From Diospyros lotus (taxonomy: Eukaryota; Streptophyta; Magnoliopsida; Ericales; Ebenaceae), in contig NC_068343.1 of assembly GCF_014633365.1 (NCBI RefSeq), forward strand, positions 23,715,307-23,779,306: a DNA stretch of 64,000 nt, in the 5' to 3' direction. The position numbers and the translations under genes are program-made. The notes beneath the pieces were generated by a model. The model was not told the origin of the DNA and did not search any database. It saw only the letters and a program-made list of their open reading frames with translations. Positions 23,494 through 64,000 of this stretch are shown here, piece by piece. Position 1 is the first letter of the stretch. The number at the start of each line of letters is the position of its first letter.

Positions 23494-23639
23494 CTAGCGT
23501 ATACCCGTGCCTTGTAAATAATATTAAGATTAAAATGCAATAATGTTCACTAATATTGCAAAAAAAAAAAATCGTAAACACTGAACAATTTATATTATTT
23601 TAATTAATAAAAATAGAATTAAAAAAATAAATGAATTCC

Positions 23640-27677: not shown

Positions 27678-27690
27678 CACCCCCCAACTT
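27678..27690 (-). other. Polypurine tract of the Athila element
   Basis: On the minus strand, AAGTTGGGGGGTG lies directly before the LTR start TGATTGATAAAA. The second Athila-related element has AAGTTGGGGGTG at the equivalent place (59860-59871). Confidence 0.8.
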
Positions 27691-29226
27691 AAACATTGCT
27701 AGTCCCTTAGCAATCAAATTAAATGCACGAATGCTTCAACATTCACAAATTCATTGATAGTGCAAATCTCGTATGTGAAGCAAAAATGTATGGTCAGTAG
27801 CATAGGGACTTCGGACAATCAAAGGAATGTTTATTATTTGAACTTTTGTCTCAGGCATATTAAGTTAAATCAATCAGCATATTGCATTCAATTCTCTAAG
27901 CTTTGATTGCAAGTTTCACTGGATATGTTTCTCTTCAATAAAATGTTCACTCAAAGTTGCTCTCAAGGATGTACCTCAATTTGGAGTGGATGTAAATCAA
28001 GTTCGAAGAGTTATCATCAATCATCAAAAATGCTATTAAGGAAGGAAAGGACCTGACATAGCTTCATGATTAGAATAGCATCTCAATGAATAGCATTTAA
28101 ATTTAACTAAGTCCCCTTACTCTTGAAATTGTATCCTGAAATTGCATGATTGATAAAACAAAGAGGGATCTTTCTGGGAAGAAATGGGGCCATATGGTAA
28201 TGTGGTATAGCAAAGGGGATGATGGAAATCAAGAGAGTTATTAGGTCCCGGGAATTTTCTACTAAGAACTGAAATTTTTTTTTTTTGATTGGTATCAGAG
28301 AAAATAAACTGCACATGTGATGCATTCATGCATCAATAGCCGAAATCATATCAAGGCACCTAAATCCAGTTGGTCGTATCCGAACCTGAATCTAACTGCT
28401 ATTCCAACTGATAGTGAACAAGCTTCCATTGCTTCACCCTCAATGGCTACGGGGGGTGTTTTTAATGTCCCAGACCTAGAGACAACCATTTATCTTAAAT
28501 GGTAAAGTGGTCTTTTAACGTCAGTTTCCCAGACGATTTTTTTTTTTTTTTTGGTAAACTACTGAGTAATTCCCGAGACCTAATCAATGGATAAGAAAAT
28601 GTCAAGGCTATGACTCGGACAGAGGGAATGATGCAACTGGTCATGAAGAGTTTTAATGGGCTATAAGTGGAAACTGATCAAAACAATAGGTTGATTGGCT
28701 CAAGTAATAGGAAAATGATCCCTCTATGATATTTCATAAATCAGCCTTATTCATTCAACTGGTTTCAAGCTTAGAGTCAGTTAAAATTAGCCGCGATCAT
28801 TAAAGACACTCAAAGCAAAATGTTGTTTTGAAGCTATTGAAAGACAAGAGAATCAACAAAATATTTTATTGCATGAATAGATGTTATTTCACTCAGAATA
28901 AAATGTCATGAAGCTCTAACACTTACTTTGGTAACAAATCTCCACTTAATTTGAGAATTTGGGCAATTTGCTGATTATTTCACATGTTTTGTATGCCATT
29001 CAAACAAATGAACAGAAATAAAGCACCCTAAGTAGTCCTGGTCCTGGTTCTAAAGCTCATACAGTTCTGTTTTCAAATAAAAGATTATCATTCAAGTAAC
29101 CAGTTGTGAATCTAAAGCATTGAGCACAATAATTTGAAGCATAGAGTAAGCAAAGTCATTTTTATTGACAAATGAAAATGTGATTAAACTTTGTAGTTCA
29201 TAGGTACAAAAATTAAACATGAAGCA
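27691..29226 (-). other. Athila 3' non-coding internal region
   Basis: No coding region is seen. The part next to the polypurine tract (AACATTGCTAGTCCCTTAGC on the plus strand) is alignable with 59872-59900 of the second Athila-related element. Confidence 0.6.
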
Positions 29227-30796
29227 TCAAATCCTATGACTACTCAGTGCCATCCGTGGCATCGTCAGAAGTAGAGTTCTCCTCAGTGGAGTTTCCAGAG
29301 GGGGTCTTTGATGAAGGATCAGCAGGAGGAATAGAGGTAGAAGATGGAATGGTAGGGTGAGAAGGTGCTGCATGCTCCGGCTGCGGCTGTGCCCCTGATG
29401 TAGAAGGTGCACCCTCTTCCTCTCGCCACATGTCAATGGTCTTCTGTATGCAAGTCTCAGCATCGGCCAACTTGTCCTTTGAAGACTTTTGAGGAAGCTC
29501 TTCTATGGGTGTGCTCAGAAATTGACCTACTCTCTTATCCATCGCAGTGTAACGTTCATTCATGGTCATTATTCCTGAATAGATGACTCTCTACCTCCAA
29601 TGTAGATCTTCATAAATGGCCTCCTGTCTTTCTTGGATCTTCTTCAGTGATTGCTTTACTAGGGCTTCATGTTTTACTTGCCTATCGTGCATTTCCTTGA
29701 CTATCTCATATAAGCCTCTGATAGTGTGACCCTCCTCTTGTCTCTCTTCCTGGTCTTCATGTAGTGGCAGTTCTTGAGTTGGTTTTTCTTGTGCTTCAAC
29801 CTGCCTGCCTGATGCTTCTCCCTTCTCAGGTGTTGTTGCTTCAAGCCTCTTTAACTGCCCACTGCTCCTTCGTGTAGATGCTGGGCTGATCCTTTCCATT
29901 GGCTTGATGACTTCAAAAGTTGCCTTTTCTTTTACCCCTTGCCTTAGTACAAAATAGGTAATCAACCCTCCAAAGGGTAGTCCTCCGCCCCCTTGTGCAT
30001 GCTTGGCCACTAAGTCGATGGTGTCAAAAATGTGCTTGGCCAAGTCTATGTGTACTCCCAGGATCATCTTTCCCATGAATGTGGCTTGCTTAACCGAGAC
30101 ACTGCCAGTGAATGCGTGGGGCATGAAATGAGAACAAAGAAGCCTATGTAAGATGATGCATTTAGGGGACAAATTCTTCTTTGGGAGGGTAGGCGCTAAC
30201 CACAAAACATCATCTGCTTCTGTCAACAACCTAGCCAAGTTTTCTTTTCCTAAGTCTGCACTTGCCTCCTCAATGTCTCTTGGTGATGCCTCTCTTGGGA
30301 TTTGGAATGTTTCAGCAATATCAGAGGGCTTCAACTCTATTTTCACCTTTCTTACTTCAGTGATCAAGCACCTATTCCCCGATTCATCTCTGTCACTGGT
30401 TATATTTGAGTAAAATTCTTTGACTAAGGGAACTATGGCCTTGTGTTGAAACTTAACCCAAGTTTGCCATCCTTTGGCAGTAATCAATGACAACAAATCA
30501 CATGGTGGTTCTTCAAATTGTTCAAGCATAATTCCCCTCTCACAAAGTACTGGCCTCTTAGCATACCCCTCAACATAGTTCTTTTCAGCCTCGGGGCTAA
30601 TGAATCTGATATTGGAATAGGGAGGGTTCAAATCAATGGTTGGGATGGTAGCGGGTTCTTTTCCTTTCTGCCTCTTCGAGGCCCTAGAGCTTTCTCCTAC
30701 GACCTTGGGGCGTTTTTGCTTTGGAGACATGTTGATTTGAGGAGTGTTTGGTCTAGGGAGTTGGTTCGGGGATTTTATTGAACAGTTGGTAGGCAC
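29227..30796 (-). pseudogene. Athila extra ORF (env-position protein), one in-frame stop
   Basis: A 401-codon frame (30796-29591) ends at TAG and continues in the same frame to about 29240 (second part contains MNERYTAMDKRV). The N-terminal part is basic (KQKRPK, SKRQKGKEP). Residues roughly 55-250 contain CERGIML, KEFYSN and VRKVKIELKPSDIAETF. This layout matches the 'putative plant transposon protein' domain of Athila third ORFs. The C-terminus is Glu/Gln-rich and probably coiled (REQ-type heptads), then Ser/Thr/Pro-rich. No signal peptide or membrane helix is visible, so an envelope role is not supported. The function is unknown in the family. The stop separates only the last quarter of the protein. 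Confidence 0.7.
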
Positions 30797-30960
30797 AAAC
30801 AGGTTCCTCTCTTTTCTTGTTCTTTCAACTTCCCAACCAATCCTCTCTTTGACACACTGAACTCCTTTACCCCCTCTTCACAACAACTCCTTCATCCAAT
30901 CAATTAAATTCGAATTTAAACAATGGGAACAACTCTTACCTCTCGGCTGTTCTCTTCCCA

Positions 30961-32045
30961 GAATATTCGAATGAAGCGGCCCCCTATTCGAATGCGAGCG
31001 GACTGTTCTTCCTTGTACGAAACCGAATTGATCTTCGGGTGGATGAATGAATGATGAATGAGGGTGGTTAGAACAAGGTAACAAGATTTATAGGAAGGGT
31101 TCGGGTGGATGAATGAATAATCGCACCGCTTAAGGAGGGGTTTCGATCTTTAAAGGGGGGGCGTCGATTCGGATTTCAGGGACGGTTATGCGGTTAAGAG
31201 GAGCATCATTCGAATGATACTGGGGTTATACGAATGATAGAGGAAGATTCGAATGGAGGTTAAGCAATTCGAATGATAGCTCGGGTCTTAGAACAATGGG
31301 TAGAAGAGGATTCGAATGAGAGAGAAAGAATGCGAATGTTCGCTGAAAGTTTTTAAAAGGCCAGACGCCTTATCCGAATGTGGAAAAATTCATTCGAATG
31401 AATTTTAAACAGTAACTTGGTTTATCGAAGGATTTGAGCCACTCATTCGAATGCAACAGTACTTTTATTCGAATGAATTTCTTGTTCATTCGAATGACTA
31501 TGAGTGTCATTCGAATGAATCTGGCAGCACACTCTCAAAGAGGGTATTGAATAGAATGATCATTCGAATGCAAAAATCTTCATTCGAATAACCTTGAACA
31601 CACTTTTTTTTTTTTATTATTATTATTTTTTTTTATTTTTTTTTATTATTATTATTATTTTTTTTTTTACGCAAATTAACTAATTGAAACTATATTCGGA
31701 TGTTAGAAATGGATTCGGATGAAGGGTAGGTTATTCGAATGAACTTGAGGATATTCGAATGCTGGCTTCAATTTTTTTAAGAAATAGCAGATTCATTCGA
31801 ATGACTTTTGAGTATGGAGAAATTCATTCGAATGAATTTTAAACAGTAATTTCATTTGTGAAGGAAATTGGCCGGTCATTCGAATGCAACAGTACTTTCA
31901 TTCGAATGAATTTTGAACATATTCGAATATAACAGAGGCTATTCGAATGCTTTCTTGCTTTCTTTTAACAGCTCACCGGTCATTCGAATGGTTTACAACT
32001 CATTCGAATGACTAAGCTCCATCCGGATACAGAATTCGAATAACA
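30961..32045. repeat. ATTCGAAT palindrome cluster in the Athila internal region
   Basis: About thirty ATTCGAAT-type motifs lie between the extra ORF and pol, outside any coding frame. They include TCATTCGAATGCAACAGTAC twice (about 31441 and 31876). The same phrase occurs in both LTRs of this element (26935 and 39394 regions), so internal and LTR clusters share longer units. A poly-T/TTA tract lies at 31597-31670. Confidence 0.85.
31597..31670. repeat. T-rich/TTA microsatellite
   Basis: Runs of T with (TTA)n interruptions. Low complexity only. Confidence 0.85.
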
Positions 32046-32425
32046 GTAAAGAAAGATTTTTTTTTTTTTTTTACATTTCCAAACACCTAAACACAAAATT
32101 CAAACCCACACAGAATGTCATTAAATGAGCAAGGATCAACACAACAGTTCAGGCATACCTTTATCCCACCCAACTTGCTTTGAACAATTCTTAAAAACGA
32201 GGATATAAGGGATACCTGGAGATCTTCAGAAATGACTTTGAACACAAAGGTCCAATTGCTTACTTGGATGTTGCTGGTAGCCTTCATTGCATGGGTGGAT
32301 CCGTGAGCTTGCTTCAGTACTTTAAATCAAAATAAAGGGTGATAACAGTTTATGAAAGCAGAACACTAATTAAATTATTATATATATATATATTTCTTTT
32401 TTTTTATTATTATTATTACTGACCA

Positions 32426-35400
32426 CTACCCAATGGGTGGATCTGTAAGATCCATGCTCTCTTCCTGTTTATTCAAAAATTCATAGTATGGTTTCAGGCG
32501 TTGTCCATTCACTTTGAGAATTTGACCAGATTGAAGATTTTCAATATCACATACACCATGAGCTGAGATGGAACGAATTTTGAAAGGCCCTGTCCACCTT
32601 GACTTGAGTTTTCCAGGAAACAGATGGAGCCTTGAATCGTAAAGTAACACATGTTGACCTATACAAAGAATTTTCCTGTTAATATGCTGGTCATGTAATT
32701 TCTTCATGTGCATCTTAGAAAACTTGGCATTCTCAAATGCCTCGTTTCTAAGTTCCTCAAGCTCATTTAGTTGCAACTTTCTGTTGAGTTCCACCTCTTC
32801 TAAACTTTCATTCATCTTCCTGATGGCCCAGTAAGCTTTGTGCTCAACCTCTACTGGCAGATGACATGGTTTTCCATAAACCAGTCGATAGGGAGACATG
32901 CCCAATATGGTTTTATGTGCAGTCCTATAGGCCCAAAGAGCATCAATCAACCTTAAAGACCAATCCTTTCGGTTGGAATTGACAGTTTTTTTCTAAAATG
33001 CGCTTGATCTCCCTATTTGCCAATTCTGCCTGGCCATTTGTCTGAGGGTGGTATGGGGTTGAGACTTTATGAACTACCCCATATTTTTTCATTAGTTCTG
33101 CCACTGGCTTGTTACAGAAATGAGAACCCCCATCACTGATGATGGCACGAGGCATTCCAAACCTACTGAAAATGTTTTCTTTGAAAAATTTTACCACTAT
33201 CCTGTGATCATTTGTCCTTGTTGGAATTGCCTCAACCCACTTGGAAACATAGTCTACAGCAAGAAGGATGTATTCATGACCAAGCGAGTTAACAAAAGGG
33301 CCCATAAAATCTATTCCCCAACAATCGAAAATTTCAAGAACCAGAATGGGCTGCAAAGGCATCATACTCTTTTTTGTCAGACTTCCTAACCTCTAGCATC
33401 TGTCACATGACAAGAAAAACTGGTGTACTTCTCTAAACATGGTAGGCCAGTAAAATCCACTTTGTAGGATTTTTGCTATGGTTTTCCGAGTAGAGAAATG
33501 ACCTCCACAAGCAAAGGTGTGACAGAAGTTCATAACACTATGTTGCTCATGTTCTGGAATGCATCTTCTCACAATTTGATCAGCACAATATTTAAACAGA
33601 TATGGTTCATCCCAGAAAAATGTTCTGACCTTTCTGAAAAACTTTTGTCTATCTGGCTTATTCCAATGACTGGGAACTGTACCTGCAGCTAAATAATTAG
33701 CTATGTCAGCGTACCAAGGGGCAGAAGTCAATGTACTCACATGAAGAAGATGTTCATTAGGAAAGTTATCAGGAATGGAACCCTCAGTAAGATCCTGACC
33801 TGGAATTCTAGACAGATGGTCAGCTACAACATTTTCTACTCCTTTTTTATCCTTGATTTCTATGTGGAACTCTTGGAGGAGCAGAATCCACCTAATGAGG
33901 CGTGGCTTGGTGTTTTGCTTAGTGAGCAGGTATTTCAAAGCAGCGTGATCTGTGTACACAATCACCTTTGAACCTATCAGGTATGACCTAAATTTATCCA
34001 ATGCAAACACCACAGCCAACAATTCTTTTTCTGTGGTAGTGTAATTTCTCTGGGCTTCATTTAAGGTTCTGCTAGCATAGTAAATGACATGGGGCTTCTT
34101 CTCTTTGCTTTGTCCTAACACAGCCCCTATGGCATAATCACTCGCATCACACATTAGTTCAAAAGGTAAAGTCCAATCAGGAGGTTGTATGATGGGTGTA
34201 GTGATAAGTGCATGTTTCAGCTTCTCAAAGGCACTTTGACAATTTGGGGTCCACTCGAATGGAACGTCCTGAGACAACAGACAACACAAAGGTCTTGCTA
34301 TTGTGCTAAATGAGGCAATAAATCTCCTGTAAAAGCCAGCGTGACCAAGAAAAGATCTAATGTCCTTGACATTTCTAGGGGCTGGAAGCTTCTGAATGGC
34401 TTCAACTTTGGCCTTGTCTACTTCTAGACCCCTAGATGAGACTATGTGTCCTAGGACAATGCCTTGGTTAACCATAAAGTGGCATTTTTCTCAATTGAGC
34501 ACAAGATGAGTCTCCTCACAACGAATCAAAACCTTCTCCAGATTCTTTAAACACAAGTCAAAACTACTTCCATAAACAGAGAAGTCATCCATAAACACCT
34601 CCACAATATGTTCAGCCATTTCACTGAAGATACTCATCATACACCTTTGAAAGGTGGCAGGAGCATTACACAACCCAAATGGCATACGTTTATATGCAAA
34701 TGTCCCAAAAGGGCAGGTGAAGGTTGTTTTCTCTTGATCTTCTAGTGCTACATCAATCTGATTATATCCTGAATATCCATCCAAAAAGTAGTAGAATGCT
34801 TGACCTGTTATCCTTTCAAGTGTTTGATCTAGAAACGGGAGGGGAAAATGGTCCTTTCTAGTCATGGAGTTGAGTTTTCTATAGTCTATGCACACACGCC
34901 AACCTGTTTGGAGGCGGATTGGGACTAACTCATTCTTCTCATTTTTCACCACAGTAACTCCGGACCGTTTAGGAACGACCTGAGTTGGACTAACCCATTT
35001 TGAATCAGATATTGGATAAATAATACCTGCATCCAGCAATTTGAGCACCTCTTTTCGAACCACTTCTTTCATATTGGGATTTAGCCTTCTCTGCATTTGC
35101 CTCACTGGTTTTGAATTTTCTTCTAAGAAGATCCTATGGGTGCAAATTAGAGGGCTAATTCCATGTAAGTCTGATATGGTCCATCCTAAAGCCTTCTTGT
35201 GTGCTCTCAGTACTTCCATCAACTGCACTTCTTGTTGGGTAGTTAGGCTGGAAGAAATGACTACTGGGTATGTCTCTCCTTCTCCTAGAAAAGCATACTT
35301 TAACTCATTCGGCGGTGGCTTCTTTTCAGGAATGAGTGGATGACTCACAGAGGTTGATGGTTTATGCAAAGGTTCTACAGGTTCTAGCTTAGGAATCCAT

Positions 35401-37937
35401 TGAGTCAATGGCATCTCACTTTCCTTTTTGATATCTTCCAAACAATTATCTCCTTTCACAGTTTGAGTGACAAACTCTTTCTCAAAATACTCTTCAGACA
35501 GAGTTTGAATCAAATCCACCTCTTCTATCTCACTTTCAGTGTTTTGTTGTTTGGAAATTCTGAAGATATTCATCTCCACAGTCATATTTCCAAACGACAG
35601 TTTCAAAACTCCATTCCTACAGTTAATGATTGCATTGGAAGTTGCTAGGAATGGTCTTCCCAAGATGACTGGAACTGGTGGTTGTGGACCATGATGGGGT
35701 TGAGTGTCTAGAACTATGAAGTCTACTGGGAAGTAGAATTTATCCACCTGAACTAAGACATCTTCCACAATACCCCTAGGAACCTTGACTGATCTGTCTG
35801 CCAGCTGCAGAGTGACTCTGGTAGGCTTAAGTTCTCCCAAACCCAACTGTTGATAGACACTATAAGGCAATAGGTTGACACTTGCTCCTAAATCTAAGAG
35901 CGCCTGGTCAACCTTCTGGCTTCCTATTATGCATGAGATGGTTGGACAACCTGGGTCCTTGTATTTGGGAGGAGTCTTAAATTGCAAAATAGAGCTCACT
36001 TGCTCAGTCAGAAATGCTTTTCCATGCACGTTCACTTTTCTCTTTACAGTGCAAAGATCTTTTAGGAATTTTGCATATGAGGGTGTTTGTTTGATCGCAT
36101 CCAAGAGTGGAATATTGATCCTTACTTGTTTAAACACCTCATATATGTCAGCATTTTGTTGTTCTTTTTTTGTAACACTCAGTCTTTGAGGAAAAGGAGG
36201 TTTAGGATGATATTGAATTTCTCTTTCAATGTTCTTACCTTTTCCATCTTCTTTTTGTTTTTGCTTGTTTTTTTCTTCATTGTTTTCATTTTTTTCTAAG
36301 ATTGGCTCCTGTCCTTCTGCTTTCTCTTTCTCAACAACAGTTTGGCTTATCCTAAGATCATTTGGTTTTTCAATCACCTTTCCACTTCTTAGGATAGTTA
36401 CAGATTGGACTTGTTCATGTGCATTGCTTTCACTACTAGAAGATTCCACCTGATTTGTTTGCCTAACTGGGTTAGGGTTGGTTTGTGAAGGGAATCTTCC
36501 AGGTTCTCTCACACTTAGTGTTTGGGTCAACTTTGTTATTTGGCTTCTCATATCCTCCACGGCTCTATTTGTTTGCTCTTGATTCTTTGTAAGCTGGGCA
36601 ACCTGATTGTTGATGCCCGTTTGATTTTGAATGAACTGATGCAAGGTGTCTTCAAAAGATCTCCTATGAGGAGGTTGGTAGGTATTGGATGAAGAACCTT
36701 GATTCTGTTGGAAGGATTGTTGATGTGCAGGGAAGGAGTTTTGAGAATGACTCCCAGCATCATGTCTCCATGAAAAATTGGGGTGATTCCTATTATTGGG
36801 ATGGTAGGAGTTGTAGTTTTGATTGTTCCCGTAATAGGTTCCACTTTGATTTTGATTCTGTCTTCCCTCAAAATTGTGTGAATTATTGTTGTTAGTCTGT
36901 CCATACAATACCTCCTTGAAAGCAGGTAGAGTAGGGCATTCTTCAGTTGCATGATCCATTGTTTCACACACAGCACATTTCACTTCTACTTGTTTAACAG
37001 ATTGTACCTTTTTGGGCTCCAGATTTTCAACCTTTTTTGTTAAGGCAGTTAGTCTTGCATTTAGATCATCATTCTCACTCAACTGGTATCTACCTCTCGG
37101 TTGTGGATTTTCCCTTAGATCAAATGAAGATGTAGGGCCAGCTTCCCAATTTCTTGTATTTTCAGCCAATGTGTCAAAGAAGTGAAACGCTTCTTCTGGA
37201 GTTTTCTCATAGAATTCTCCATTACACATTGTAGAAACCAACATTTTTAATTGGGGCGTGAGTGAGTCATAGAAGAAACTGACCACTCGCCATTGCTCAA
37301 AGGCATGGTGCGGACAAGTGTGGAGAAGATCTTTGAATCTTTCCCATGCTTGGGCAAAATTTTCAGTTGATTTACAGGCGAAGTTCATGATTTGTCTTTG
37401 AAGAGTAGCGGTTCTGTTGGCAGGAAAATATTTTTTCAAAAAAGTTGCTTGCATTTCTCTCCAAGTTCCTATAGATCTAGGTAGGAGAGTGCCTAACCAC
37501 ATTTTTGCCTTATCTTTTAGTGAGAATGAGAAAAGTTTTAACCTTACAACATCCTCATTTACTGTATGATCCATGCAAGTGCTACACACTTCCTCGAATT
37601 CCTTCATATGAGTGTATGGATTTTCAGAATCCATACCATGAAATGTAGGCAACAATTGGATTGTGCCAGGTTTAAAATTGAACCTATGGTGATTTATGGG
37701 AAGGATGATACACGAGGGTGTTGTCTGCCTTGGAGGGTGAAGGTACTCTCTAAGAGGTCTAATCAATTCCTGATCAACAGGATCAGGATCGCCATGGTCA
37801 CTCCCATGTTCGGACATGTTGTTTGGTTGAGCCATAAATGAGTGTGGCAATGAAAACTCAAAATCAGATGGAGTACTTTCTGAATGTAACACTTGTTCAA
37901 CCACTCTACCGGATCTAAGTCTCATACACCAGACCAA
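32426..37937 (-). pseudogene. Athila gag-pol with two stops and one frameshift
   Basis: The first open part (37937-34491, 1148 codons) has a Gag domain (FNFKPGTIQLLPTFHG), one CCHC knuckle (CAVCETMDHATEEC), protease with DLGASVN and reverse transcriptase with FMDD. A TGA at 34491-34493 replaces what is usually Trp in the Asn-Trp-Glu-Lys-Cys motif. The frame continues through RNase H and the integrase zinc-binding region (34475-33393). A TAG at 33393 follows CDRC. The same frame continues (33365-32943) through the integrase core ([21 protein letters not shown]). A frameshift at a T7 run on the plus strand (32986-32992) moves the integrase C-terminus ([15 protein letters not shown]) to another frame, 32950-32426. 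Most of the protein is well preserved, so the breaks are young. The start codon is only about 77 bp from the primer-binding site. Confidence 0.9.
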
Positions 37938-38014
37938 ACAGACAGAGAAGAGAAATTAAAGAACAGAAGTAAAAAGAAAAAGGACTAGGGATGATTATTT
38001 GGCTTACCTTAATC

Positions 38015-38032
38015 TCCCCGGCAACGGCGCCA
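38015..38032 (-). other. Primer-binding site, tRNA-Asp type
   Basis: On the minus strand, TGGCGCCGTTGCCGGGGA is complementary to the 3' end of plant aspartate tRNA, including CCA. It lies five bases inside the 5' LTR. Confidence 0.88.
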
Positions 38033-38037
38033 AAATT

Positions 38038-40038
38038 TGCTACATCACTCACCCTGCATTTGTCACTTTTTGTATTTTTCTTTCACTAATTCAGCTGATT
38101 TAGCAACTAATTATGTTCACAGATAGGATGAGGCGTTTAGACTCGCCAGTGCACGAGTGTGATTGTAGCAGAAAATTTATATGTAATTTTTCCGGGCAAG
38201 ACCGGGTCGACTCACAGGGAGATTACTCATGGAAGGAGATAACCACACCAGTTCTTTTGATTAACGGAATAATGAAATGAGATCAAACTAAATGTGATAT
38301 AACTGTAATCTGGAAATGGAGAGATCTTGGGTCAAGACAAATCTGGTGCCAAACCCAACTGATTCTCCGTATAGCTTTCTGTGATGTAACTAGCAGCTCA
38401 AATAGCTTGGGTTTTCAACCATTAAATGTACTACTGAGATGATGATAACTCTTTGTTCAAGCAACCTCCATACATGACATGGAGACTCTATGGTAAGAAG
38501 CTATCATAAATCAGTGTATAAATAATGTTTTGACAAAATAATTGCTCGGGGCTTGGGTATGAGAACGTTTCCAGGTCAAGCAGCCTCCATACATGGCATG
38601 GAGACTCTAAGTTAGGCGTACGAACCAATCCAAGCCTGAGGTTTTCGTTAATAATATTTCCCAAACTGCTTTTGCTTTTGTTACTTTGACATATGGAGTT
38701 CTGTTATATTGATTCATCAGTGGCTTTGGGCACCATCCTTGCCTTAACCCAAGAATCGAATTAGCCACACATCTTCATAGGAAGTGCACGACTAAAACTA
38801 ATCTCTACAGATGAATACACAATTCGTAAAGGAAATAACTGAGACAACAGATAAGAACTTGGTAAACTACTGCTGTATTGATTGCTGAAACGAACTACCA
38901 CATGAAGCAGAAATTAAAATGAACTTGTAATACAGAACTCAGAATTAGCAAGAACAACTAGTGTAACTGAAGTGCTATTCGCAAAGAAAGAGATACAGAC
39001 AAGAACAAAAATAGGAGAAACAGACAAAAGGAAAGGAAAATAAATCTGCGCTTCCAAAATGATCTTCTTCTTTCTTGTATTGTTTTTCTTAGTATCTTCT
39101 GCACTCGCCAACCTCTGATTCCAAAGAATGTTGGTCCCTTTTTAAGCTTATGGCGCATGGAAGTGGGGACCATTTGTTGAAAAGTTGTTCAAAAAGTTGG
39201 TTGAATTTACCTTAGAGCCACCGCGTGTATTTGTGCATGTCAGAATTTTTGTTCGGCTGTTCATTCGAATGACTAGCAGAGACATTCGAATACTTGCTGA
39301 GTTTCTTTTGGCTGATCGGCTCATTCGAATGAATTTTAGTCCCATTCGAATGAATTTCATGCTTTACTGTTCCTTACACGGCGATTTTCTCGGTCATTCG
39401 AATGCAACAGTACTTTCATTCGAATGAATTTCTAATTTTTCTATTGACTTCTTCATCTGGAGAGCATTCGAATATGGCGTTCCTTGGGTTGCTTCTCATT
39501 CGAATTACTCAGCCTTCATCCGAATAGATTTCCTTTCTTCTTCAACTTCATTCGAATGACTTGGATTTCATTCGAATATGTCTTCACTGCTTCCAAACGA
39601 TGTGCTCATCCGAATTTCTTCTTATGCTCGGCTCATTCGAATGACTTGGATTTCATTCGAATATGCACAATCTGGAGATCTTGATTTTTGTTACTTCTTA
39701 TTCGAATTAGGCCAAGCTCATCTGAATACATACCCGATATCTTGCATATTCGAATGTCTGAATGATTTTATTCGAATGTTTGAGCAGCTCTCTTCTGTTT
39801 TGCTCCATATTTGAATACCTTTGAAGACTTATTCGAATGGCTTTGGCTTTCATTATGACACTTTTATTTCTTGACTTTTTATTCCTCTTTCAATCATGCT
39901 TTTAGAGAGTATGAGTCATTCTTTCATCTCTTTTCCTTCTTTTGGGCTGCAACAAGCAATTCTGGAGATTTTAAGTCGATCAAATGGGTTAGGAGGTAAT
40001 AAAAACATAACAAATATTGCATTTTTTTTTATCAATCA
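38038..40038 (-). mobile_element. 5' LTR of the Athila element (2001 bp)
   Basis: On the plus strand it runs from TGCTACATCACTCACCC to TTTATCAATCA. It includes a region (38130-38240 and 38440-38770) alignable with the LTRs of the second element at 58043, for example CCTTGCCTTAACCCAAGA versus TTTGCCTTAACCCAAGA. This supports common descent of the two elements. Confidence 0.87.
39259..39840. repeat. ATTCGAAT palindrome cluster, 5' LTR
   Basis: Counterpart of 26799-27480, one 85 bp unit shorter. Confidence 0.88.
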
Positions 40039-40801
40039 ACAGGACACACACATATACATAATATATATACACATAGTTAGTATACACACACGCAACACAT
40101 GCATACAGATATAATATATACACACGCACAGTTAGTATATAAACACACACACACAACATGGCATAACAGCCTTATGAATATACCCAACAGAAATTTTCTT
40201 AAATTCTGTTCATAGCAAAAATCAATAGCAAAGAACACATAAAAAATTTCTAAGACCATCAAACAACAAATTATCAGCAAACATCACATACCTCTGAGAT
40301 CTGGCCGAAGTAGCGAACGGCAAGGATCGGGTCAGATCTTAAGCCTTATAAATGTGAGTGTATAAATCATATATATGTGCTTGTGTGTGTAAGCAAAAAC
40401 AAAGAGAAATGAGCAAAAACAGCCCCCCGATTTCCGGCAGCAAGCTTCTCAACGCCCACCTCTGGTGCGTGTGTTGGGCGTGAGACACAGCCCTCCATTC
40501 CTGTGTGCCTTATTCTTCTTCTCTTCTTTCCTTCTTTCAGGTGCGCTGAACAACACAACAGTCTTCTTCTCTCGGAAGGTTACAGACCGCTAGCTTCTAG
40601 CTAAGAGAGGAAGAAGAACATAAAGGAAGAGAGATAGATAGGGATGATGGGGAGACAGAGGGTAGACAAGGAGACAGATAGAGAGGAAAGATGGGTGAGA
40701 ACACACAAATAAATAGATTCATCTCAGCCAAATTGATCTCAGCCATTGAAATGTCTATACATTTGAGACATTTAAAAAACCCTTATGTTTTATTATATAG
40801 A
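40039..40801 (-). other. 5' part of the candidate Helitron, right of the Athila insertion
   Basis: 40039-40240 is the continuation of the duplicated CA/TA-rich unit (see 25972-26256). On the minus strand a CAGATCTCAGAG|GTATGTG junction near 40292 could be a 5' untranslated exon with a splice donor, possibly of the captured PIF-like gene. This is weak. 40690-40801 (TCATCTCAGCC, CCATTGAAAT, TTTATTATATAGA) matches 24370-24490 and forms the Helitron 5' terminus. Confidence 0.45.
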
Positions 40802-42699: not shown

Positions 42700-43045
42700 T
42701 GTAACAACCCACTTTCCCAAGGCTTGTCACTATGTTGGGATTTTTTTTCCTTAAACCGTTTCCTTTTCCCACAATACCGTCTCTTAATGCCACAAGTACC
42801 GAATTTAAAAATCCCTAACATACATATATATTTAACACTCCAAATGATAAGTTAAAGAATGATAAACTAACCACTTGCGGAAGCAAAAATTGAAACCTAA
42901 GGGAATATTGTAATTGTAAATGAAGTAAATCCATATAAAATCATTCAATAACCAAAATATTACAATATCCAGCAAACAAATTTAACATAAAATAGCCGAA
43001 ACACGCCACTTGTCATGATTCTCACAATTTCTCCTAGGAAAATTT
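42700..43045 (-). mobile_element. Start of a reverse-oriented LTR inserted in the protease
   Basis: TGTAACAACCCACTTTCCC with a following TGCGGAAGC...GAAACCT region is alignable with the LTR starts at 9606, 18532 and 21136. The left flank is GAAAT. The right end was not found. The sequence runs into the inverted repeat at 43046. Confidence 0.6.
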
Positions 43046-44340
43046 TATTCGCAACCTGTAGAATTACTCTTCATAGCTTACACCCCCACCAAATCCTTTA
43101 ATAATTTTAAAATTCCTATTTCACCCCCACAATCCACAACCCACTCTCTCATCCGACCACCCTTAATCCCCGGCTGTCGCCTCGTGTCTCCCTTTCTCTC
43201 TTGCACCATATACACACATACACACACAAACACATACATATATATATATACATGCCATTGCTGGGTCGGCCATGGTGGCCGACCCATACAAACACTCTTT
43301 CTCCATGCGATGGTTGCGAGGTCGGTCACAACCCACACACACACTCTCTCTCTCTGTCTCTTTGTTCCCTGAATACACACACACACACACAAACACACAC
43401 ATCTATATATGTACACACACACACACGCATGGTTGCGGCTGCCATGGCCACGGCCATGGAAGCGAGCATTCCCCAACTACTGCCAGTCGAAGAACTCAAT
43501 AGTTCCCCAATTGCCAGCAATCGGGGTACGTATTTTTTTATTATTTTAATTAAATTTTTTTATTATAATAAATAAAAAATAAAATTAAACAAATAATACA
43601 AATAAATAATGTTTTTTTAAATATCTGCATTTTAAGTAATTATAAGTTAACTAATTTTATATAGGTATGTATATAAATTAACTAATTTTATATATACATA
43701 GGTGTGTTTGTGTGTGTATATAATTAATACTAATTTTAAATTTTCTTAAGTATTAACTAATTCAACACCATGATTTAAAATTTAAAATTAGTTAATTTAT
43801 AATTAAATGTAGATATTTAAAAAGAATTTATTTATTTGTATTATTTTTTTAATTTTTAATTTTATTTTTTATTTATTATAATAAAAACATTAATTAAATA
43901 ATAAAAAAATGCGCTCCCCAACAGTCGGGGAACGTTGGCTTCCATGGCCGCGGCTATGCGTGTGTGTCTATATATATATATATATATCTGTGTGTGTGTG
44001 TTTTCAAGGAATAGATAGAGTGTGTGTGGGTCGACCGCCATTACCGACCCATCTCATGGCCATCGCACAGAGAGAGAGAGAGTGTGTGTTTGTATGGGTC
44101 GGTCGCCATGACTGACCCAACAATAGCGTGTATATATATATATGTATATGTTTGTGTGTGTATGTGTGTATATGGCGTAGGAAAGAAAGAGAGACACGAG
44201 GCGGCGGTCGGCATTCAAGGGTGGTTGGAGGAAAGAGTGGGTTGTGGGCTGTGGGGGTAAAATAAGTATTTTAAAATTATTAAAGGATTTGGTGGGAGTA
44301 TGGGCTGTGAAGAGCAATTCTACGGGCTACAGATAGAATA
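43046..44340. repeat. Long inverted repeat (foldback), arms about 600 bp
   Basis: The left arm (about 43046-43690) and right arm (about 43740-44338) are reverse complements over almost their whole length. Paired examples: CTGTAGAATTACTCTTCATAG with CTGTGAAGAGCAATTCTACGG, CACCAAATCCTTTAATAATT with AATTATTAAAGGATTTGGTG, and the GGCCATGG-containing segments. The loop is about 50 bp (around 43690-43740). Identity falls by scattered substitutions and differing CA/TA repeat lengths. Frames on both strands come from CA repeats and are not genes. Confidence 0.87.
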
Positions 44341-55789: not shown

Positions 55790-57001
55790 TTACTATGGCA
55801 TCATTGCAACCTCTATTGGGTATTCGCGCGGTCACTTCTGATCTCATCCTCATTAATAGCGGATCTTATTCATATTAATGAGGGTCGCGTTGTCACCATA
55901 TTACGACCTGGGAACTTTCACGGGCATCGAACAGTCAGTCCCATCACTTGCAAACGCACGACATATGCATGCAGGAGAACGTCTCCTCCTCCTATATTAG
56001 TCAGCTCTACTTAGAGTCAAGATATGTTTTGATCTCTAACCTACTGATATGTTGCTTTTTCCTTACCTTCTTACTCACTTGAGTATCGGAGGGCTAGCAG
56101 GTGCCAGCCCCCCTACCCAGACGGATTCGTCGTTGGAGCCCGCGCTCTACTGTTGCAACCCCACCTCCGATCGTCCGCCTTTAGTCAGGAAGGAACATTT
56201 TGCACCCACCGTGGGGCTCGATAAAATTTACCTACCCCATAACTTCACTAAAACCTTTCAAACCAACCTTCCCGTTGGCATACCATGGTGCGAACCAGAA
56301 GCACCCTCGCTTAAGAACCGAATAACACCAACCACCTCTCGCAAAACCCAGCTGTCATGGAGGTCCTCTTCCAGACTGTCCAATAACTTCAAAACCAAGT
56401 CACTAAGTTAACTAGAAACCAACACAAAGCTCTAGGACTTCTGTCAGGAGCTTGACATCCACCGGGTCTTCACCTCAGTCGAACACTCTTAGACCAACAG
56501 CCAAGCAGAAGCCATGAACAAGGTCATCTTAGCGGGTCTAAAAAAACGACTCGATGGCGCATGGCCAAAAGAACTCCCCATGGTGTTGTGATCGTACCAC
56601 ACCACAGCTCAAACCTCGACCATGGAAACACCCTTTAGACTCACTTACGGGTCAGAGGCCATGATCTCTATGGAGATTGAAGAACCTAGCCCCAGGCGAC
56701 AACATTTTTGTGAGGACACCAACGGTAAAGGGCAGCGAGTCGACCTCGACCTTGTCCAGGAAATTCGAGACCAAGCCCAAATCCACGAACATACTGCCAA
56801 ACAAAGAGTAGCTCGGAAATACAACAAAAGGGTAAAACCAGAGGATTCAAGAAAGGGACTTAGTCCTAAGGAAGATTAAAGGCCCAAGTAAATAACCCGC
56901 ACAAGGAAAACTCAACGCTAACTGGGAAGACCTTTATCGAGCCTCTAACAACCTCGGCAATGGAGCTTACCACTTGGCCGAACTCCTAGGAAGGCCCCTG
57001 T
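55790..57001 (+). pseudogene. Tat-lineage Ty3/gypsy relic: LTR end, gag start, integrase fragment
   Basis: An LTR-end-like segment (GTATCGGAGGGCTAGCAGG) is followed near 56195 by ACATTTTGCACCCACCGTGG, a Tat-type primer-binding region. A Gag start follows (MVRTRS at 56285). Shortly after, at about 56500-56880, an integrase C-terminal part appears: QAEAMNKVI, KELPMVL, stop, then METPFRLTYGSEAMI. Most of gag and all of protease, reverse transcriptase and RNase H are missing, so there was a large internal deletion. Stops interrupt both remaining parts. The integrase signature points to the Tat branch. Confidence 0.75.
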
Positions 57002-57706
57002 TGTAATACCACGTATTACATGGTGATGGAAAAGATATAATTTTTAGTTATTTTGGAAGGATCTCGGGTGGTCCGGGAAAGCCGAAAGTCGATTTCGAGA
57101 AACTAATTAATAAAATTGTCGAATCGACGACAGGGAATGTCCCGGAACTTGGATGTCCAGGAAAGAGGGCATGATATTGGTAAGCATCTCAAGGTGAGGT
57201 ATATGACGTTGGAAGCAGTTCAATCGAGAATAATTTTCAGAATAAATTCTGTATAAGCTGAATGGGTGCTAGTATCGAATGGTCGTAGGGGACCCTAAGG
57301 GTGCTCTGGTTTTGCGAGTACTGCAACCCTAAAATGTTTTTTAGGTGGCATAAAGGTCTCATGCAGGCGCATGGATGAAGTTGATATTCCCGAGTAATTG
57401 TTGGTAATTAATTTTTGAGAAAACAAGATTTGATGTGCTAGTTTTGTGCCTGGGTCACCTTTGACTTATTACGTGACGAGTTGAAGAAAGGTAAAGCTCA
57501 CTCGGGTCTCGAGTCCCATCCGCTGTGCTTTTTTTATGTTTTGGGACTGATTTCTCGAGTGGAGCGAAGGGAAAGACGAACCCTAATGCCCACTTAGGGC
57601 GTTTCTTTTTGAAACATAGTCTAACCCTCCAGTTGTTGGTTTGTTATGTGAGTAATCCGGTTGATTATTCACCGGTAGCGCTCGTAGGTGGGAGCAGGTC
57701 GTTACA
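57002..57706 (+). mobile_element. 705 bp LTR followed by a primer-binding site
   Basis: It begins TGTAATACCACG and ends GGTCGTTACA. TTGGCATCAGAGAATGAC (57708 on) follows as a variant initiator-Met primer-binding site, so it is a 5' LTR. Only about 330 bp of internal leader remains before the second Athila-related element. Confidence 0.75.
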
Positions 57707-57707
57707 G

Positions 57708-57722
57708 TTGGCATCAGAGAAT
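57708..57722 (+). other. Primer-binding site (variant Met type)
   Basis: TTGGCATCAGAGAAT lies just inside the LTR end. It has C in place of T at the fifth position of the usual TTGGTATCAGAGC. Confidence 0.65.
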
Positions 57723-58042
57723 GACTAGCAATATGAGTAGGGAAAACTAGCGTGTTAGTGGTGTTATGTATGGTCGGTTAAGTGATTGAAGTGAGTGTAA
57801 CTGCCAGAGTTATGAGTTGGGAATTGTCTAGCATAATTTTGATGTAAGTCAGAATGTCGTAATTGCTGAGATGGGGTCGGGAACAATTGTTTGTAATTTG
57901 AGACTGATTTGATGGCCTCGAAAGTAAGGACATATGGTCCAAGAACCCTAAGGATTGGGTTAAAGTGGTGAGGCCTGTGATGATTTGAATGGTATGCTCG
58001 GATTTCCTATTATAAGAATAGGAAAATACCATGGGTTGAAAT

Positions 58043-59859
58043 CGGCTGCACTCTCACCCTGTAATTAAAACACAATAAAAATACAATAAAACTTTTATAT
58101 ATTTTTTTATTTTAATGAAAGATTTATACTCGTCAGTGTACGAATGCAGTTGTAGTCTAAATTTAAATTTGTATTTTCTGGATGAGTCCAGGTCGTCCAC
58201 TGAGAGATTTATTTATGACAAAAGAAAAAAAATATCATAAAGACACACACATTTGGATGAATTGGCAACATGATTTTTTTGTGGATTTTCAGATAACGGA
58301 TGCTAGGAAATAAAGCAAGGCATAAATTAAAATAAACATTGAATGTGAGAATATAGAATTTGATAACATTTGAGTTAAAACAATTTCAGCATCAACCCGT
58401 TGATTATTAATTTTTAGCAGAAAAAATTAACATTAATTTAATTTCAGATATGAGGGTTTGTTATTAAATGCAATTAGAAATGATGATAGTTCTAATTTAA
58501 GCAATCCCCATACATGATATGCGAGATTGTAATTTAAACAACTATCATAAATCTAATTACAATTAATACACAAAATAACTAAATTAATTATCCGAATTTG
58601 GGTATGATAGCGTTTCCAGTTCTAGTAATTCCCATACGTGGTATGAAAGCTTTAAGTTAGGATTACGCTCCATTCCAAATCTAATGATTTCTTAATAATT
58701 AAGACACACTGATACTAAAATTTAAATTAATGTTGCTTATTTAAAACGTAGCTTTCTTTGAGAATCATTGGCGTTGGACACTGTTTTTGCCTTAACCCAA
58801 GATTGGATTTAGAAAGCTTTAAGTTAGGATTACGCTCCAATTCAAATCTAGTGATTTCTCAATAATTACTACACACTGATACTGAAATTTAAATTAATGT
58901 TAGTTATTTAAAACGTAGCTTTCTTTGAGAATCATTGACGTTGGACACTGTTCTTGCCTTAATTTAAGATTGGATTTAGTTATTCATTTTCATTTAAAAA
59001 TTAATTGACAGAAATTTAAATGACAAGAATTAAAACAACAAAAATTAACTGGCCATTTAGGCGGTAGATAATAAAAAGATAGGAATCAAAATGACAGAAA
59101 TTAAATGGCAGAAATTAACTAGCCATTTAGGCGGTAGATAATAAAGTAATAATAAATGACATAAGAATTCATGAGAAGAAAGAAAAAAAATAAGATTACA
59201 AGAGAAAAGAAGAGAGAACAAGAGCAATTCTCAAAAAGAAATTCTAAAAACACAATTAGGTTTTGATTCAAGAATAATGACCTTCTCACAAGTGTATTCA
59301 AGTGAGCTATTTATAGCCGATAAGATGCAATAAGGACCACACAAATAAAATTATTCCATTATCACAAAACATAATCATAACTAAGCTAATGGAGTATTTA
59401 TAAAAAAAATACAAAAGATTTTAGGTGGTAAAGTACTCATAAAAATACAAAAGACTTTAGGTGGTAAATCACTCATAAAAATATAAAATAAAGAAAAGTC
59501 TTCTACAAGTTGGGCTTTGTTAGGCCTTTGGTTGGTCTTGGGCCTTCTATGTGAAAAATTATTGGGCCTTCCTTGTGATTAAAATGTTTGGGCCTTCCTT
59601 GAGTTGGACTCTATTTAATAGTTGATCCAATTGTAGTTAAAACATCTTCTACATTCAATAATTGGCCCTTGAATTTGAGCAACAATAATGGGTCATCCAA
59701 AGTTTTCGATTTATGTCCCTAATTAATTGTAGAAATCAACTTTCTCGCTTCATCCTAAAAATAATATGTAATGTGTATAATTATTTATTTTAAACATAAA
59801 TATAAAACCAAAATGGGGATATAATTCATTAAGATTTAGGAAACATTAGCCCCTTATCA
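58043..59859 (-). mobile_element. 3' LTR of the second Athila-related element
   Basis: On the plus strand it starts CGGCTGCACTCTCACCC (5' LTR counterpart TGACTGCACTCTCACCC) and ends GCCCCTTATCA just before the polypurine tract. It contains a tandem duplication of about 168 bp. Confidence 0.8.
58647..58981. repeat. Tandem duplication of about 168 bp in the LTR
   Basis: AGCTTTAAGTTAGGATTACG to AAGATTGGATTTAG appears twice in direct succession (second copy from about 58815), with scattered differences. A shorter repeat, CCATTTAGGCGGTAGATAAT, occurs at 59053 and 59123. Confidence 0.8.
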
Positions 59860-59871
59860 CACCCCCAACTT
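59860..59871 (-). other. Polypurine tract of the second element
   Basis: AAGTTGGGGGTG on the minus strand, directly before the LTR's TGATAAGGGG. Confidence 0.78.
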
Positions 59872-61750
59872 GAATATTGCTAGTCTCTTAGCAATCAGAT
59901 TATACACCAACCATGATTTAATCACAATACTTGTATGAATATAAAAATTTCAAATTCGAAAGCAAAATGCATAGAATAGAATAAGTAGTTTGGCATACAG
60001 TTGAACATTCTAATTCGGATTTTTGGTTAAAAGTCATACAATCTCAAGAATAGCAATCAGGATGACTAACACACAAACTTACTCCCTCGAAATTTTGACT
60101 TTAAACCTTATTGTGGATTTTTCCTCCAATAAAAATGATTCTTCAAGTGTACATATAAGGATGTGCACTGTTATAAGAGTAATTGTAGAACAAGTTCAAA
60201 ACTCGATGTCATCCCAAATACAAGGAACATATTTTCATAAAAGAACAGGGAAATTGACATAACTTCATGACTGGAATAATGCCTTAAATGAATAACTTTT
60301 GAATTTAAACATAATTCTCTACTCCGAACTCGAATCCTGAGATCACATGATTTATAACATCAAGAGAGACCAGACCGGGTTGTAATGGGGCTATGAGGTT
60401 AATACGGGTTGTCAAATAAAAAAGAGTAGAGTGTGCAAAATGTGTGTCGCAATATTTTTTTTTTAACACTAATATCTAGCTGGACATATTATTTTCTTAA
60501 ACATTTATTTTGAAACACTTGTGCTGAATAGCTAAGAAAGTTTCCCTCTATTTTTTTTGCTCATTTTTTTTTATATATATATGAAAATGCCAAGATAGAC
60601 TGATTCCTTAAAACACACCAAGTTTGGACAAACTTCATGAGATTGCGGTTTAGATGAGGATAAGAAAAGAAATTGTGCTAAGAACAGTTTGAATCGGCTA
60701 GCAAGAGAGGTTAATGTAAAGAAAGAAAAAAGTTATTAGGTCCAAATTGAAAGAAATTGATCCCCCTATCATGTTTCTACAAAACGATGTTACTCAGTCA
60801 ACTAATTCAAAGTTTGAAACCAACTAAATTCATCCACTATCATACTAGACATTCAAAGCAAATTGATGTTTTGAAACTATTGAAAAATTGATATAAACAA
60901 TAAAACACATTTAGAGTAAGTGTTATTTCACTTAGAATCAACATTTATTAGGCTCAAACACTCACTGAGGTAATAGTCTTCACTTCTGTTGAGGGATCAT
61001 GCAATATACTAATCAGCTAATTATTGTTACCTTTGACTTTATGATCGATAACTAATTTTTAATTTTTGAATACTCGATGAATGCAAATTACCTATTCTAA
61101 TGCATATACGTTTTTAAATAAGAAATCAATGCATTCATGTTTCGTATTGCAAACTTAACTAGCTATCAGTGCATAACTTCAAAACTTTAAAGCACACAAT
61201 TTTTTTTTTTTTTTAATAATAAGAGCTGATAAAGATAACCAATTCACACAAGACTACAAGCAAGCAATAGCAAATTCACAGTTAAACATGAATCAAATAA
61301 TTCATAACTAAACCTTGCACCCTCTCAACTTGAATTGCAGTAATAAAATAGGGTTGTTAGGAATATCTGTAACTCTACAAGTCTATATATTTACTGTGAA
61401 CTATTAAAACTTCAACAAACAATTAAGAATATCATATGTATATATATTTTTTCACACCAAAATAAAAAAAAAATCATGCAAGTCATAAGATAAACAAAAT
61501 GCGTCTCAAGAGTACAAAAAGTACTCCTTACTCAGCCATCTTATCATAGACTTGCATAACAACATTTCGCAATTTTTTTTTTTTTTAAGAACACAACCAA
61601 GAAAAATCCTACAAGTTGTAAAAATAAACATATGTGTTTCAAGAGTACAAAATGTACTCCTTACTTAGCCATCTTAACAAAGAACACTTTTTACAGTGAT
61701 AAATCTAAATTAATCGGACCCCTTTGGCGCTTGTTTCTGATTGTCTTAGA
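59872..61750 (-). other. Non-coding internal region of the second element
   Basis: No gene is seen on either strand. It contains several poly-T/A tracts (60452, 60550, 61200, 61573). Two near-repeats lie at 61500-61545 and 61630-61680 (AAGAGTACAAAA(A/T)GTACTCC). Confidence 0.6.
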
Positions 61751-62349
61751 TTAGTCTATTCGAGGCTCATAAGAATCGTGCTGTGGAACATAAGCGTGTA
61801 ATTTCTCTAGTAACTTCTCAGTGGTGGATGCGAAAATGAGAATCTTTCTTGCTGAAAGAGAAATGAATTTTTGGTCCACAGTCTGATCAAGAAAAGAGAG
61901 CAACCCATCGAAAAAATGGTTAACATTTAAAAGTCCAATAGGTTTGATATGGAGATTACTCTTGGCCTAGGAGATTATAAAGAATATTTCTTCAAGTGTA
62001 CAAAAACCTCATAGTAAAGCAATGAGGCATCTGACTGATAAATCTTACAAGCTATGCGCTCAAACATAGAAGTCGTTTTTATAAGTTGACCGCGTGTAAT
62101 TCCAGAAATGTGTGGATTAGCCAAAGGGATTGGCATTACACCTATCACATAAGACTTTCCAATATGTGCAGCGTGTGAAACATATCTATTTAATCCACGA
62201 CTTCCTCCTCCATATACCAAATTAATTTTTTTCTCTCCCAATTTTAAGCCAAGTTCACTTGCTGCAAGTGTGTAACAACTATCGCTTCCGAGTTGAGAGC
62301 CATATAATACACATATGGTATTGATTCGACGAACTAACTGGCTTTCCAT
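61751..62349 (-). pseudogene. LOG-like: LONELY GUY-like cytokinin riboside 5'-monophosphate phosphoribohydrolase, broken
   Basis: LOG enzymes release active free-base cytokinin from its nucleotide in one step. From the ATG at 62349 the frame encodes INTICVLYGSQLG, then INLVYGGGSRGL, SYVIGVMPI and a segment ending YQSDAS. A one-base loss near 62025 shifts the frame, and the apparent frame then ends at 61975. In the shifted frame the enzyme resumes: the catalytic PGGxGTxxE motif survives only as GFCTLEE after a TGA (62009-62011), a TAG (61967-61969) follows, then KPIGLLNVN, FFDGLLSFLDQ, SARKILIFAST and VPQHDSYEP to a stop at 61751. Total length is about 200 codons, close to a whole LOG. No introns are visible, whereas plant LOG genes have several. 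This suggests capture of a spliced RNA. It lies on the sense strand of the retrotransposon. It cannot make active enzyme. Confidence 0.88.
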
Positions 62350-62516
62350 TTATATTTGTTCTTTATGTATGCTCTGAAAAGAGGTTTGACGATCAAAAGT
62401 AGCTATACAATAATTCAATAAGAAACAAACTCAAAAATCATGCGTATGTACAAGTAGTTGTGATCGTGGCTCACATCTTCTTCTAGTTTTACGTCCAAAA
62501 ATGGCTAAAACACCTT

Positions 62517-63062
62517 CTATGAAGTGGGGATAGGCTTCCCATCCAATTTTCTTATAGATTGGCAAACATGGTCGTTTATAGTCAGATTTCCAAGACTATA
62601 GCATTGGTGGTCACTTATGAACTGAATCCATAAAGCAAGAAGTTCTCTTTGCACTATTCCACACAGATGCATCTCAAGAGTCAATCGGATATCATCCAAA
62701 GACTCCTTACTCAGTCAATCCTTTATGAAATTAATTTTAACTTCTCGATTTATGGACATAAACCCCACAGATTTGCATCGTGTGTTATAGGTCCATCGAG
62801 CACATTTGTGACAACCATTCACTCTTTTTGCTCTTCGTTTCTTCGCAAAACTACTCTTCCCCAAGCCTGAAAAATGCTTAAAATTAGGTAAAGTTTTGCC
62901 TAGTAATCGAACTTTTACTTCGATCAACCAACGAATATCTTCAGGGATGTTATTATATAGCAACATCTTAAGTCTTTCACACTTAGCGGCGTAAATTTTT
63001 TTCAAATCATTCATCGGGAGAGATGGATAGTACTTGCGAATTTTCGAGAGTTGAAGATCCAT
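62517..63062 (-). pseudogene. Small basic Cys-containing ORF, carlavirus NABP-like layout, one in-frame stop
   Basis: This is the first frame after the leader, in the gag position. It runs 115 codons (63062-62715) to TGA and continues in frame to 62517 (a part with LTLEMHLCGIVQRELLALW). Visible features: an IPEDIRWLI stretch (39-47), then GLGKSSFAKKRRAKR (66-80), then CHKC (84-87) and a third Cys (96). The order (hydrophobic IPxxI segment, Gly/Ser, basic RR patch, CxxC finger) resembles the cysteine-rich nucleic-acid-binding proteins of carlaviruses (Betaflexiviridae), some of which act as silencing suppressors. The fourth finger Cys is not obvious. I have not been able to search for it. Alternatives are a retroelement-specific protein or a chance basic ORF. 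The lower-coordinate part resembles nothing I know. Confidence 0.5.
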
Positions 63063-63745
63063 TTTTTTTTTTAATTAAAACACAACTATAATAAGAAAAA
63101 ACTAAAAACTATGAATCTTACAAAATGGATGAGAGTACCTGACCGAAGAACAACACAAAGGAGAGAAGACTAAGCTTGCTTGCAGAAGTGTGGCTTGCCT
63201 CCTACAAATATGGAGTCTCTTATAGAACAATGGACGTCACTATTCTACATTCAGCTCGAGACATACCATCATTGCACTGTCACATTTAGCGTCGTCTAGT
63301 GTCCATTTTTTCAACATTTAGCAATGTGCCTCTTTATTTATAGGGCAATGTGATTGCACTGCTTAAGAAAAGTGGCTACCACTAGCGTCAATTTTGTCTT
63401 TTTTTTTTCTCTTAAATATATATATATATTTTACTATTAATTATTTTTTATTTATTTATTTTTTGGGGGCCTAATAAAATCATATATACCACACAAGACA
63501 ATATTATCGAGTTAAACAAAATTATTTGCACATTGGATTAATTTCAAACACCAATGAATCAATTTTTAAGTACACCTTAGCCCCCAACTTGAATTGCGCA
63601 TTGTCCTCAATCGGCAATAAAAAGATAGAGGATAAGCATACCTAGCGGTCTTCAATGCATGAACTCGTATGCAAAAATTTTGTTTAGACGGATTTATTAG
63701 GAGATGCTTATTCTTATTTTTTTTTATTTTGTTTTTGCCTTAATC
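63063..63745 (-). other. Leader region of the second element
   Basis: No frame is recognised. The plus strand at 63579-63600 (GCCCCCAACTTGAATTGCGC) resembles the polypurine-tract neighbourhood (ACCCCCAACTTGAATATTGC at 59859). So a second polypurine-like sequence lies near the 5' end. This may mark an internal rearrangement. Confidence 0.5.
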
Positions 63746-63763
63746 TCCCCGGCAACGGTACCA
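63746..63763 (-). other. Primer-binding site, tRNA-Asp type with two mismatches
   Basis: The plus strand reads TCCCCGGCAACGGTACCA. The Athila element at 38015 has TCCCCGGCAACGGCGCCA, which matches tRNA-Asp. It is five bases from the 5' LTR. Confidence 0.82.
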
Positions 63764-63768
63764 AAATT

Positions 63769-64000
63769 TGACTGCACTCTCACCCTACAATTAAAACACA
63801 ATAAAACTTTTATATTTTTTTTATTTTGGTGAGAGGTTTATACTCGTTAGTGTACGAGTGCAGTTGTAGTCCAAATTTAAATTTGTATTTTCTGAATGAG
63901 TATAGGTTGTCTACTGAGAGATTTATTTATGGTAAAAGAAAAAAAAATGTCACACACACACAAGCGCATCTGGATGAATTGGCAATAGGATTTTTTTTTG
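63769..64000 (-). mobile_element. 5' LTR of the second element, partial
   Basis: It starts TGACTGCACTCTCACCC and follows 58043-58260 with many substitutions and small indels. It runs off the window. Confidence 0.8.

Follow-up and report, generated by a model that had tools for sequence, protein, structure and literature searches.

An old gag-pol-less Athila-like LTR element of Diospyros lotus with a broken LOG-like region and a carlavirus-protein-like open reading frame

Anatomy of the element and its Athila-like relative

The window, the 64,000-nucleotide stretch of Diospyros lotus DNA that was analysed as a whole, holds on its minus strand an LTR element without gag-pol that runs from 58046 to beyond 64000 (Table 1). 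Inside it, a leader of about 0.7 kb separates the primer-binding site (PBS) from the first open reading frame (ORF), which is virus-like, sense, open over its 115 codons and adjacent to a LONELY GUY (LOG)-like region. The LOG-like region is likewise on the element's sense strand, between the PBS and the polypurine tract (PPT). Among the ORFs of 60 aa or more between the LTRs, none encodes gag-pol.

Table 1. Features of the element in the order of its sense strand, with positions in the window
Feature	Positions	Strand	Basis
5' LTR, inner part only (the window end cuts the rest)	63772..64000	-	LTR-pair alignment
Primer-binding site, minus-strand letters TGGTACCGTTGCCGGGGA	63746..63763	-	match to the window's Athila-like element
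Virus-like ORF, first after the leader, 115 codons from the ATG at 63062	62715..63062	-	Pfam Carla_C4 and Viral_NABP
65-codon stretch in the same frame, past the stop of the virus-like ORF	62517..62714	-	without family match
LOG-like N-terminal part	61975..62349	-	2a33 and TIGR00730 matches
LOG-like C-terminal part, in a second frame	61751..61966	-	2a33 and Lysine_decarbox matches
3' internal stretch, about 1.9 kb, Athila-like in two blocks	59872..61750	-	BLAST to the window's Athila-like element
Polypurine tract AAGTTGGGGG, adjoining the 3' LTR	59862..59871	-	match to the window's Athila-like element
3' LTR, about 1.8 kb	58046..59861	-	LTR pair and Athila-like LTR stretches

Over 241 columns, the LTR ends at 58046-58283 and 63772-64000 share 83.4% identity, with a K2P distance of 0.122 over 226 sites (19 transitions, 6 transversions). 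This comparison is limited to the 63772-64000 stretch because the window end cuts the second LTR, and the 5' boundary of the 3' LTR is set by the PPT because the window offers a partner for no more than the final 238 bases of this LTR. The element is an old copy, the one known here within the 64-kb window. Between 58046 and 63771 there are seven A-runs of 9 or more on the sense strand versus one on the antisense strand. The 3' LTR contains a 167-bp tandem duplication at 58645-58978 (92% identical), and two 85-bp repeats, 80% alike, lie at 61466-61683, directly 3' of the LOG-like region in element sense. An Rfam scan of 56000-64000 returned no match, and a tRNA scan of the whole window found none.

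A second element on the same strand, at about 26000-40240, serves as the reference for classification. Its LTR blocks are near-identical (97.9% and 99.6%), and four of its five scanned ORFs match gag, aspartic protease, reverse transcriptase, RNase H, integrase and Transposase_32 families, the last in the ORF at 29591-30877; the ORF at 32426-32992 matches no family. Since its pol is split over several ORFs, as is its gag-pol altogether, this relative is not a demonstrated helper. A BLAST search of the element against the rest of the window gives seven matches, all inside the 26-40 kb relative. The PBS region (63735-63792) aligns with 38004-38061 at 85% over 59 columns and the PPT region (59856-59902) with 27674-27721 at 90% identity over 48 columns. 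Three LTR matches, two of them from one query stretch, reach 69-80% (58463-58699 at 69%, 58764-58812 at 80%), and the internal blocks 60255-60394 and 60753-60993 match 28054-28193 and 28711-28955 at 72% and 70%, respectively.

The PBS of the relative is presumably the Athila-type sequence, from which that of the element differs at two positions; the latter, TGGTACCGTTGCCGGGGA, we take to be complementary to tRNA-Asp. The relative is called Athila because of this PBS type and because no separate second RNase H family is listed in its five scanned ORFs. In the sister clade, Tat, the hallmark is an aRH domain (PMC6317226). At the level of sequence, the placement of the element as a gag-pol-less Athila derivative, made independently of a reverse transcriptase tree, appears well supported; the term derivative, rather than autonomous Athila member, is used because its own gag-pol is absent. 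The paired LTRs, the missing gag-pol and the relation to Athila, all proposed in the initial annotation, are thereby upheld.

The surroundings contain other repeat-like features. An open frame of 1341 codons at 3-4028 runs off the window start and reads by eye as a Ty3/gypsy polyprotein, and an inverted self-match of about 1.3 kb (69%) lies at 43042-44339. Just outside the 3' LTR, the sequence TGGCATCAGAG at 57711-57721 resembles what is presumably a methionine-tRNA primer-binding site, and may mean that the element lies within or next to another LTR element.

The virus-like open reading frame

The ORF at 62715-63062, which the initial annotation had missed, constitutes a second cargo reading frame with likeness to a carlavirus protein. 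Profile scans place it above the curated gathering scores of two Pfam families, Carla_C4 (27.0 bits vs 20.9, E 4.4e-6) and Viral_NABP (24.7 bits vs 23, E 2.7e-5). These are the only families listed at E up to 10, a range in which the HMMER filters drop most weak matches. None of nine shuffled versions of the ORF reaches any gathering score; four of the nine give a family match of some kind, the strongest at E 0.001 with 19.1 bits vs a gathering score of 27. The two matches span stretches of 33 and 66 residues, in which a basic KKRRAKR is followed by C-X2-C-X8-C, the fourth finger cysteine being missing. As the four-cysteine finger is incomplete, the ORF is filed as carlavirus-protein-like and not as a member of that protein family. 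The ORF is without visible truncation, and its 115 codons are not short for the family, of which the potato virus H protein has 10.87 kDa (PMC3689765). The 65-codon stretch past its stop, which matches no family in profile scans, may or may not be part of the ORF.

Carlavirus cysteine-rich or nucleic-acid-binding proteins are likewise small and combine a basic motif with a CxxC finger (PMC3689765, PMC12172455). The finger of potato virus H reads C-X2-C-X9-C-X4-C (PMC3689765), in contrast to the C-X2-C-X8-C that is found here within an LTR element. Carlavirus proteins of the nucleic-acid-binding family act as silencing suppressors, and p12 of CVB is described as a transcription factor that induces hyperplasia (PMC12172455). 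Within the scope of titles and the beginnings of abstracts, and with subscription literature mostly outside, a literature search found no carlavirus-type gene inside an LTR element.

Alternatively, the LOG-like sequence might have been captured as proposed, while the ORF upstream of it would be a degenerate zinc-finger reading frame of the host or of the element itself, its viral likeness stemming from a basic stretch that precedes a CxxC finger. The shortness of the match and the missing fourth cysteine fit such an origin, as do the searches beyond sequence profiles: the predicted structure is poor (mean pLDDT 52.6), Foldseek returns ten matches at E up to 10 and none at 0.001, and the scan of viral_contigs yields eight pattern matches and no relatives. 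Against it, two related viral families score above their curated cut-offs at the same place, a limit of E 10 adds no further family, and none of the nine shuffles passes a cut-off. In addition, the five scanned ORFs of the Athila-like relative match transposon families in four cases, none in one and a viral family in no case at E 0.01. This zinc-finger origin is therefore considered somewhat unlikely.

Two further stretches were compared with the virus-like ORF. A weak match within the window (25.5%, E 6e-4) lies at 23615-23755 and adjoins a repeat-rich stretch. The 85-bp repeats, starting at 61466 and 61599, were rejected as copies of the ORF: their scores were equalled by 56 and 1 of 500 shuffles, and the score equalled only once stemmed from an A-run in the flank.

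The LOG-like region: identity, breakage and divergence

LOG is an enzyme that releases active cytokinin. Both pieces of the region match At2g37210 (2a33), which is presumably LOG3: the N piece, 61975-62349(-), aligns through its own residues 6-110 with residues 10-114 (E 2.8e-15), after which the frame is lost, and the C piece, 61751-61966(-), aligns with residues 135-197 (E 1.5e-14). Each piece is half a domain, and this is how the profile scores are to be read. The C piece exceeds the gathering score of Pfam Lysine_decarbox (42.3 bits vs 27) and stays below the curated cut-off of TIGR00730 (36.8 vs 96.35), while the N piece exceeds no curated cut-off (TIGR00730, 42.6 vs 96.35 at E 5.1e-11; LDcluster4, 22.1 vs 26.3; Lysine_decarbox, 11.9 vs 27). 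Taken together, the two pieces are homologous to the LOG Rossmann domain. For the N piece, the scan of viral_contigs gave ten pattern matches and no relatives; neither this piece nor the virus-like ORF matched a PHROGs family. In none of 300 dinucleotide shuffles of 61751-63074 is the pair of longest sense ORFs (124 and 119 aa, stop to stop) matched; homology is decisive and ORF length is not, because shuffling the whole element interior yields a single ORF of 124 aa or more in 6 of 300 cases.

About 188 residues, from 10 to 197 of a 215-residue chain, are colinear and free of introns. In peanut, LOG genes mostly have seven exons and six introns (PMC13257298). The aligned pieces are separated by 59 bases where 60 (20 codons) are expected, and the loss of one base therefore fits. 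In the second frame this gap reads LL*GFCTLEEIFFIIS*A, with the TGA and TAG in the catalytic-motif stretch directly upstream of the C piece. The motif of the LOG family is PGGxGTxxE (PMC11593424); its position here reads L*GFCTLEE, so that the P and two of the three G positions are lost and a stop lies within. The region is accordingly a LOG pseudogene. The initial annotation had called it a LOG-like, intron-less, sense-strand sequence broken by a one-base loss, a TGA and a TAG, and in each of these points the alignments agree with it.

Identity of the region is 42% (70/168) to At2g37210 and 64/164 to At5g11950, compared with 68% (112/164) between these two Arabidopsis proteins. The LTR divergence translates into about 0.061 substitutions per site since insertion, and 400 simulated decays at this value keep a mean identity of 88%; a fall from 68% to 42% needs about 0.25 substitutions per site. 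Provided that an ordinary plant LOG was captured, most of the LOG divergence would be older than the insertion; the comparison assumes a starting distance from At2g37210 no greater than that of At5g11950. The stop count was rejected as proof of past selection, as two or fewer stops have a probability of 0.60 at 0.25 substitutions per site, and constraint and decay are not separated by it.

These results also bear on whether the cargo was ever carried. The alternative would be ordinary nested debris, with an Athila derivative that was already dead receiving a viral fragment and a processed LOG pseudogene in separate insertions, as the broken LOG and the absence of gag-pol would allow. A 14-base sense A-run at 61573-61586, about 165 bases past LOG, could be its poly(A) remnant, as a retrocopy would have; it is not telling, however, given that sense A-runs of 9 or more occur seven times in the element. 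Independent insertions are further opposed by the tandem sense arrangement of both ORFs between PBS and PPT, by a LOG divergence that exceeds insertion-age decay under the assumption of the simulation, and by the recurrence of LOG in Gypsy elements of other species (PMC9289625), and are thus judged unlikely. A fast-diverged host LOG paralogue that was captured recently, whose divergence would be uninformative on life inside the element, is compatible with a simulation that does not distinguish divergence inside the element from divergence in a host paralogue, but seems improbable with 42% identity far below the 68% between the two Arabidopsis LOGs compared.

Origin of the cargo and known systems

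The element is probably a non-autonomous Athila derivative that acquired a host LOG and a virus-like RNA as cargo. Its ends (LTRs, PBS and PPT) would be those usable by the reverse transcriptase and integrase of a relative, and the space of gag-pol would have been taken by two tandem sense ORFs, first the virus-like one and then the processed LOG. Most likely, the reverse transcriptase switched templates once or twice and so linked the cargo to the element's RNA, with a spliced host LOG mRNA as the likely source of LOG and an RNA related to flexiviruses, or its endogenised form, as the putative source of the virus-like ORF. For packaging and copying, RNA transcribed from the LTR would then have depended on proteins supplied in trans by an Athila-like relative, and LOG presumably diverged as coding sequence before the insertion. 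Capture through RNA had already been proposed from the intron-less structure; as a deduction from the missing introns it is reasonable, and it keeps that standing here. For endogenised sequences of plant RNA viruses, the reverse transcriptase of retrotransposons or pararetroviruses has been proposed (PMC3136472), and in a 2025 study of Retand elements, antisense extra ORFs are discussed as possibly stemming, among other sources, from recombination with an unknown virus (PMC11963269).

LOG cargo in plant Gypsy elements is already known. The abstract of Steinbauerova et al. 2011 reportedly describes two Athila-like elements similar to LOGL4, and the LOG-bearing elements of that study are said to be Athila-like, as is the element described here. 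A LOG (YgdH) domain is likewise present inside Ty3/gypsy LTR consensuses of Citrus sinensis and C. clementina and, under a laxer filter, of Populus trichocarpa, a finding that its authors call 'in line with' Steinbauerova et al. 2011 (PMC9289625). With this domain already in print, the initial view of LOG as an unusual passenger is weakened. Two differences distinguish the present element: the Citrus and Populus elements were selected by their reverse transcriptase (PMC9289625), whereas this one lacks gag-pol, and it has a virus-like ORF beside LOG, while the main text of PMC9289625 contains neither 'carlavirus' nor 'nucleic acid binding'.

Other systems share single features. The AlkB/2-ODD Gypsy elements of Phalaenopsis, sister to Ogre, also carry an additional enzyme domain, the type of which is found in flexiviruses too; unlike the present element, they are 25 kb long, retain gag-pol and are represented by 38 and 23 consensuses in two species, and their enzyme was active in vitro (PMC9289625). 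In cucumber, CsFRLS1 is an endogenised betaflexivirus sequence, i.e. flexivirus-related chromosomal DNA with retrotransposon-like sequence nearby; it differs in being replicase-related, and the passages of the source drawn on here do not describe it as LTR-element cargo (PMC3136472). Maize Bs1 and other gene-transducing LTR elements likewise carry transduced host gene sequence (PMC7264820); the cargo described there is of host origin, while a virus-like ORF is additionally present here.

The recurrence of LOG as Gypsy cargo in different plants hints at selection over accident. Were the ORF next to it to encode a virus-type nucleic-acid-binding protein, the element would be one of the rare retrotransposons with an RNA-virus gene. 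It is very improbable that the element family stably carries a two-gene host-manipulation module composed of a protein of a viral silencing-suppressor family and a cytokinin-activating enzyme; if true, the two together would relieve RNA-silencing pressure and hold the cell lineage in a dividing or meristematic state, through which new copies would enter the germ line. Existing genomes make it testable whether hormone and silencing functions are acquired by plant retrotransposons, and whether the pair of ORFs is retained under constraint where elements bear LOG, in Citrus and Populus as well as in this host.
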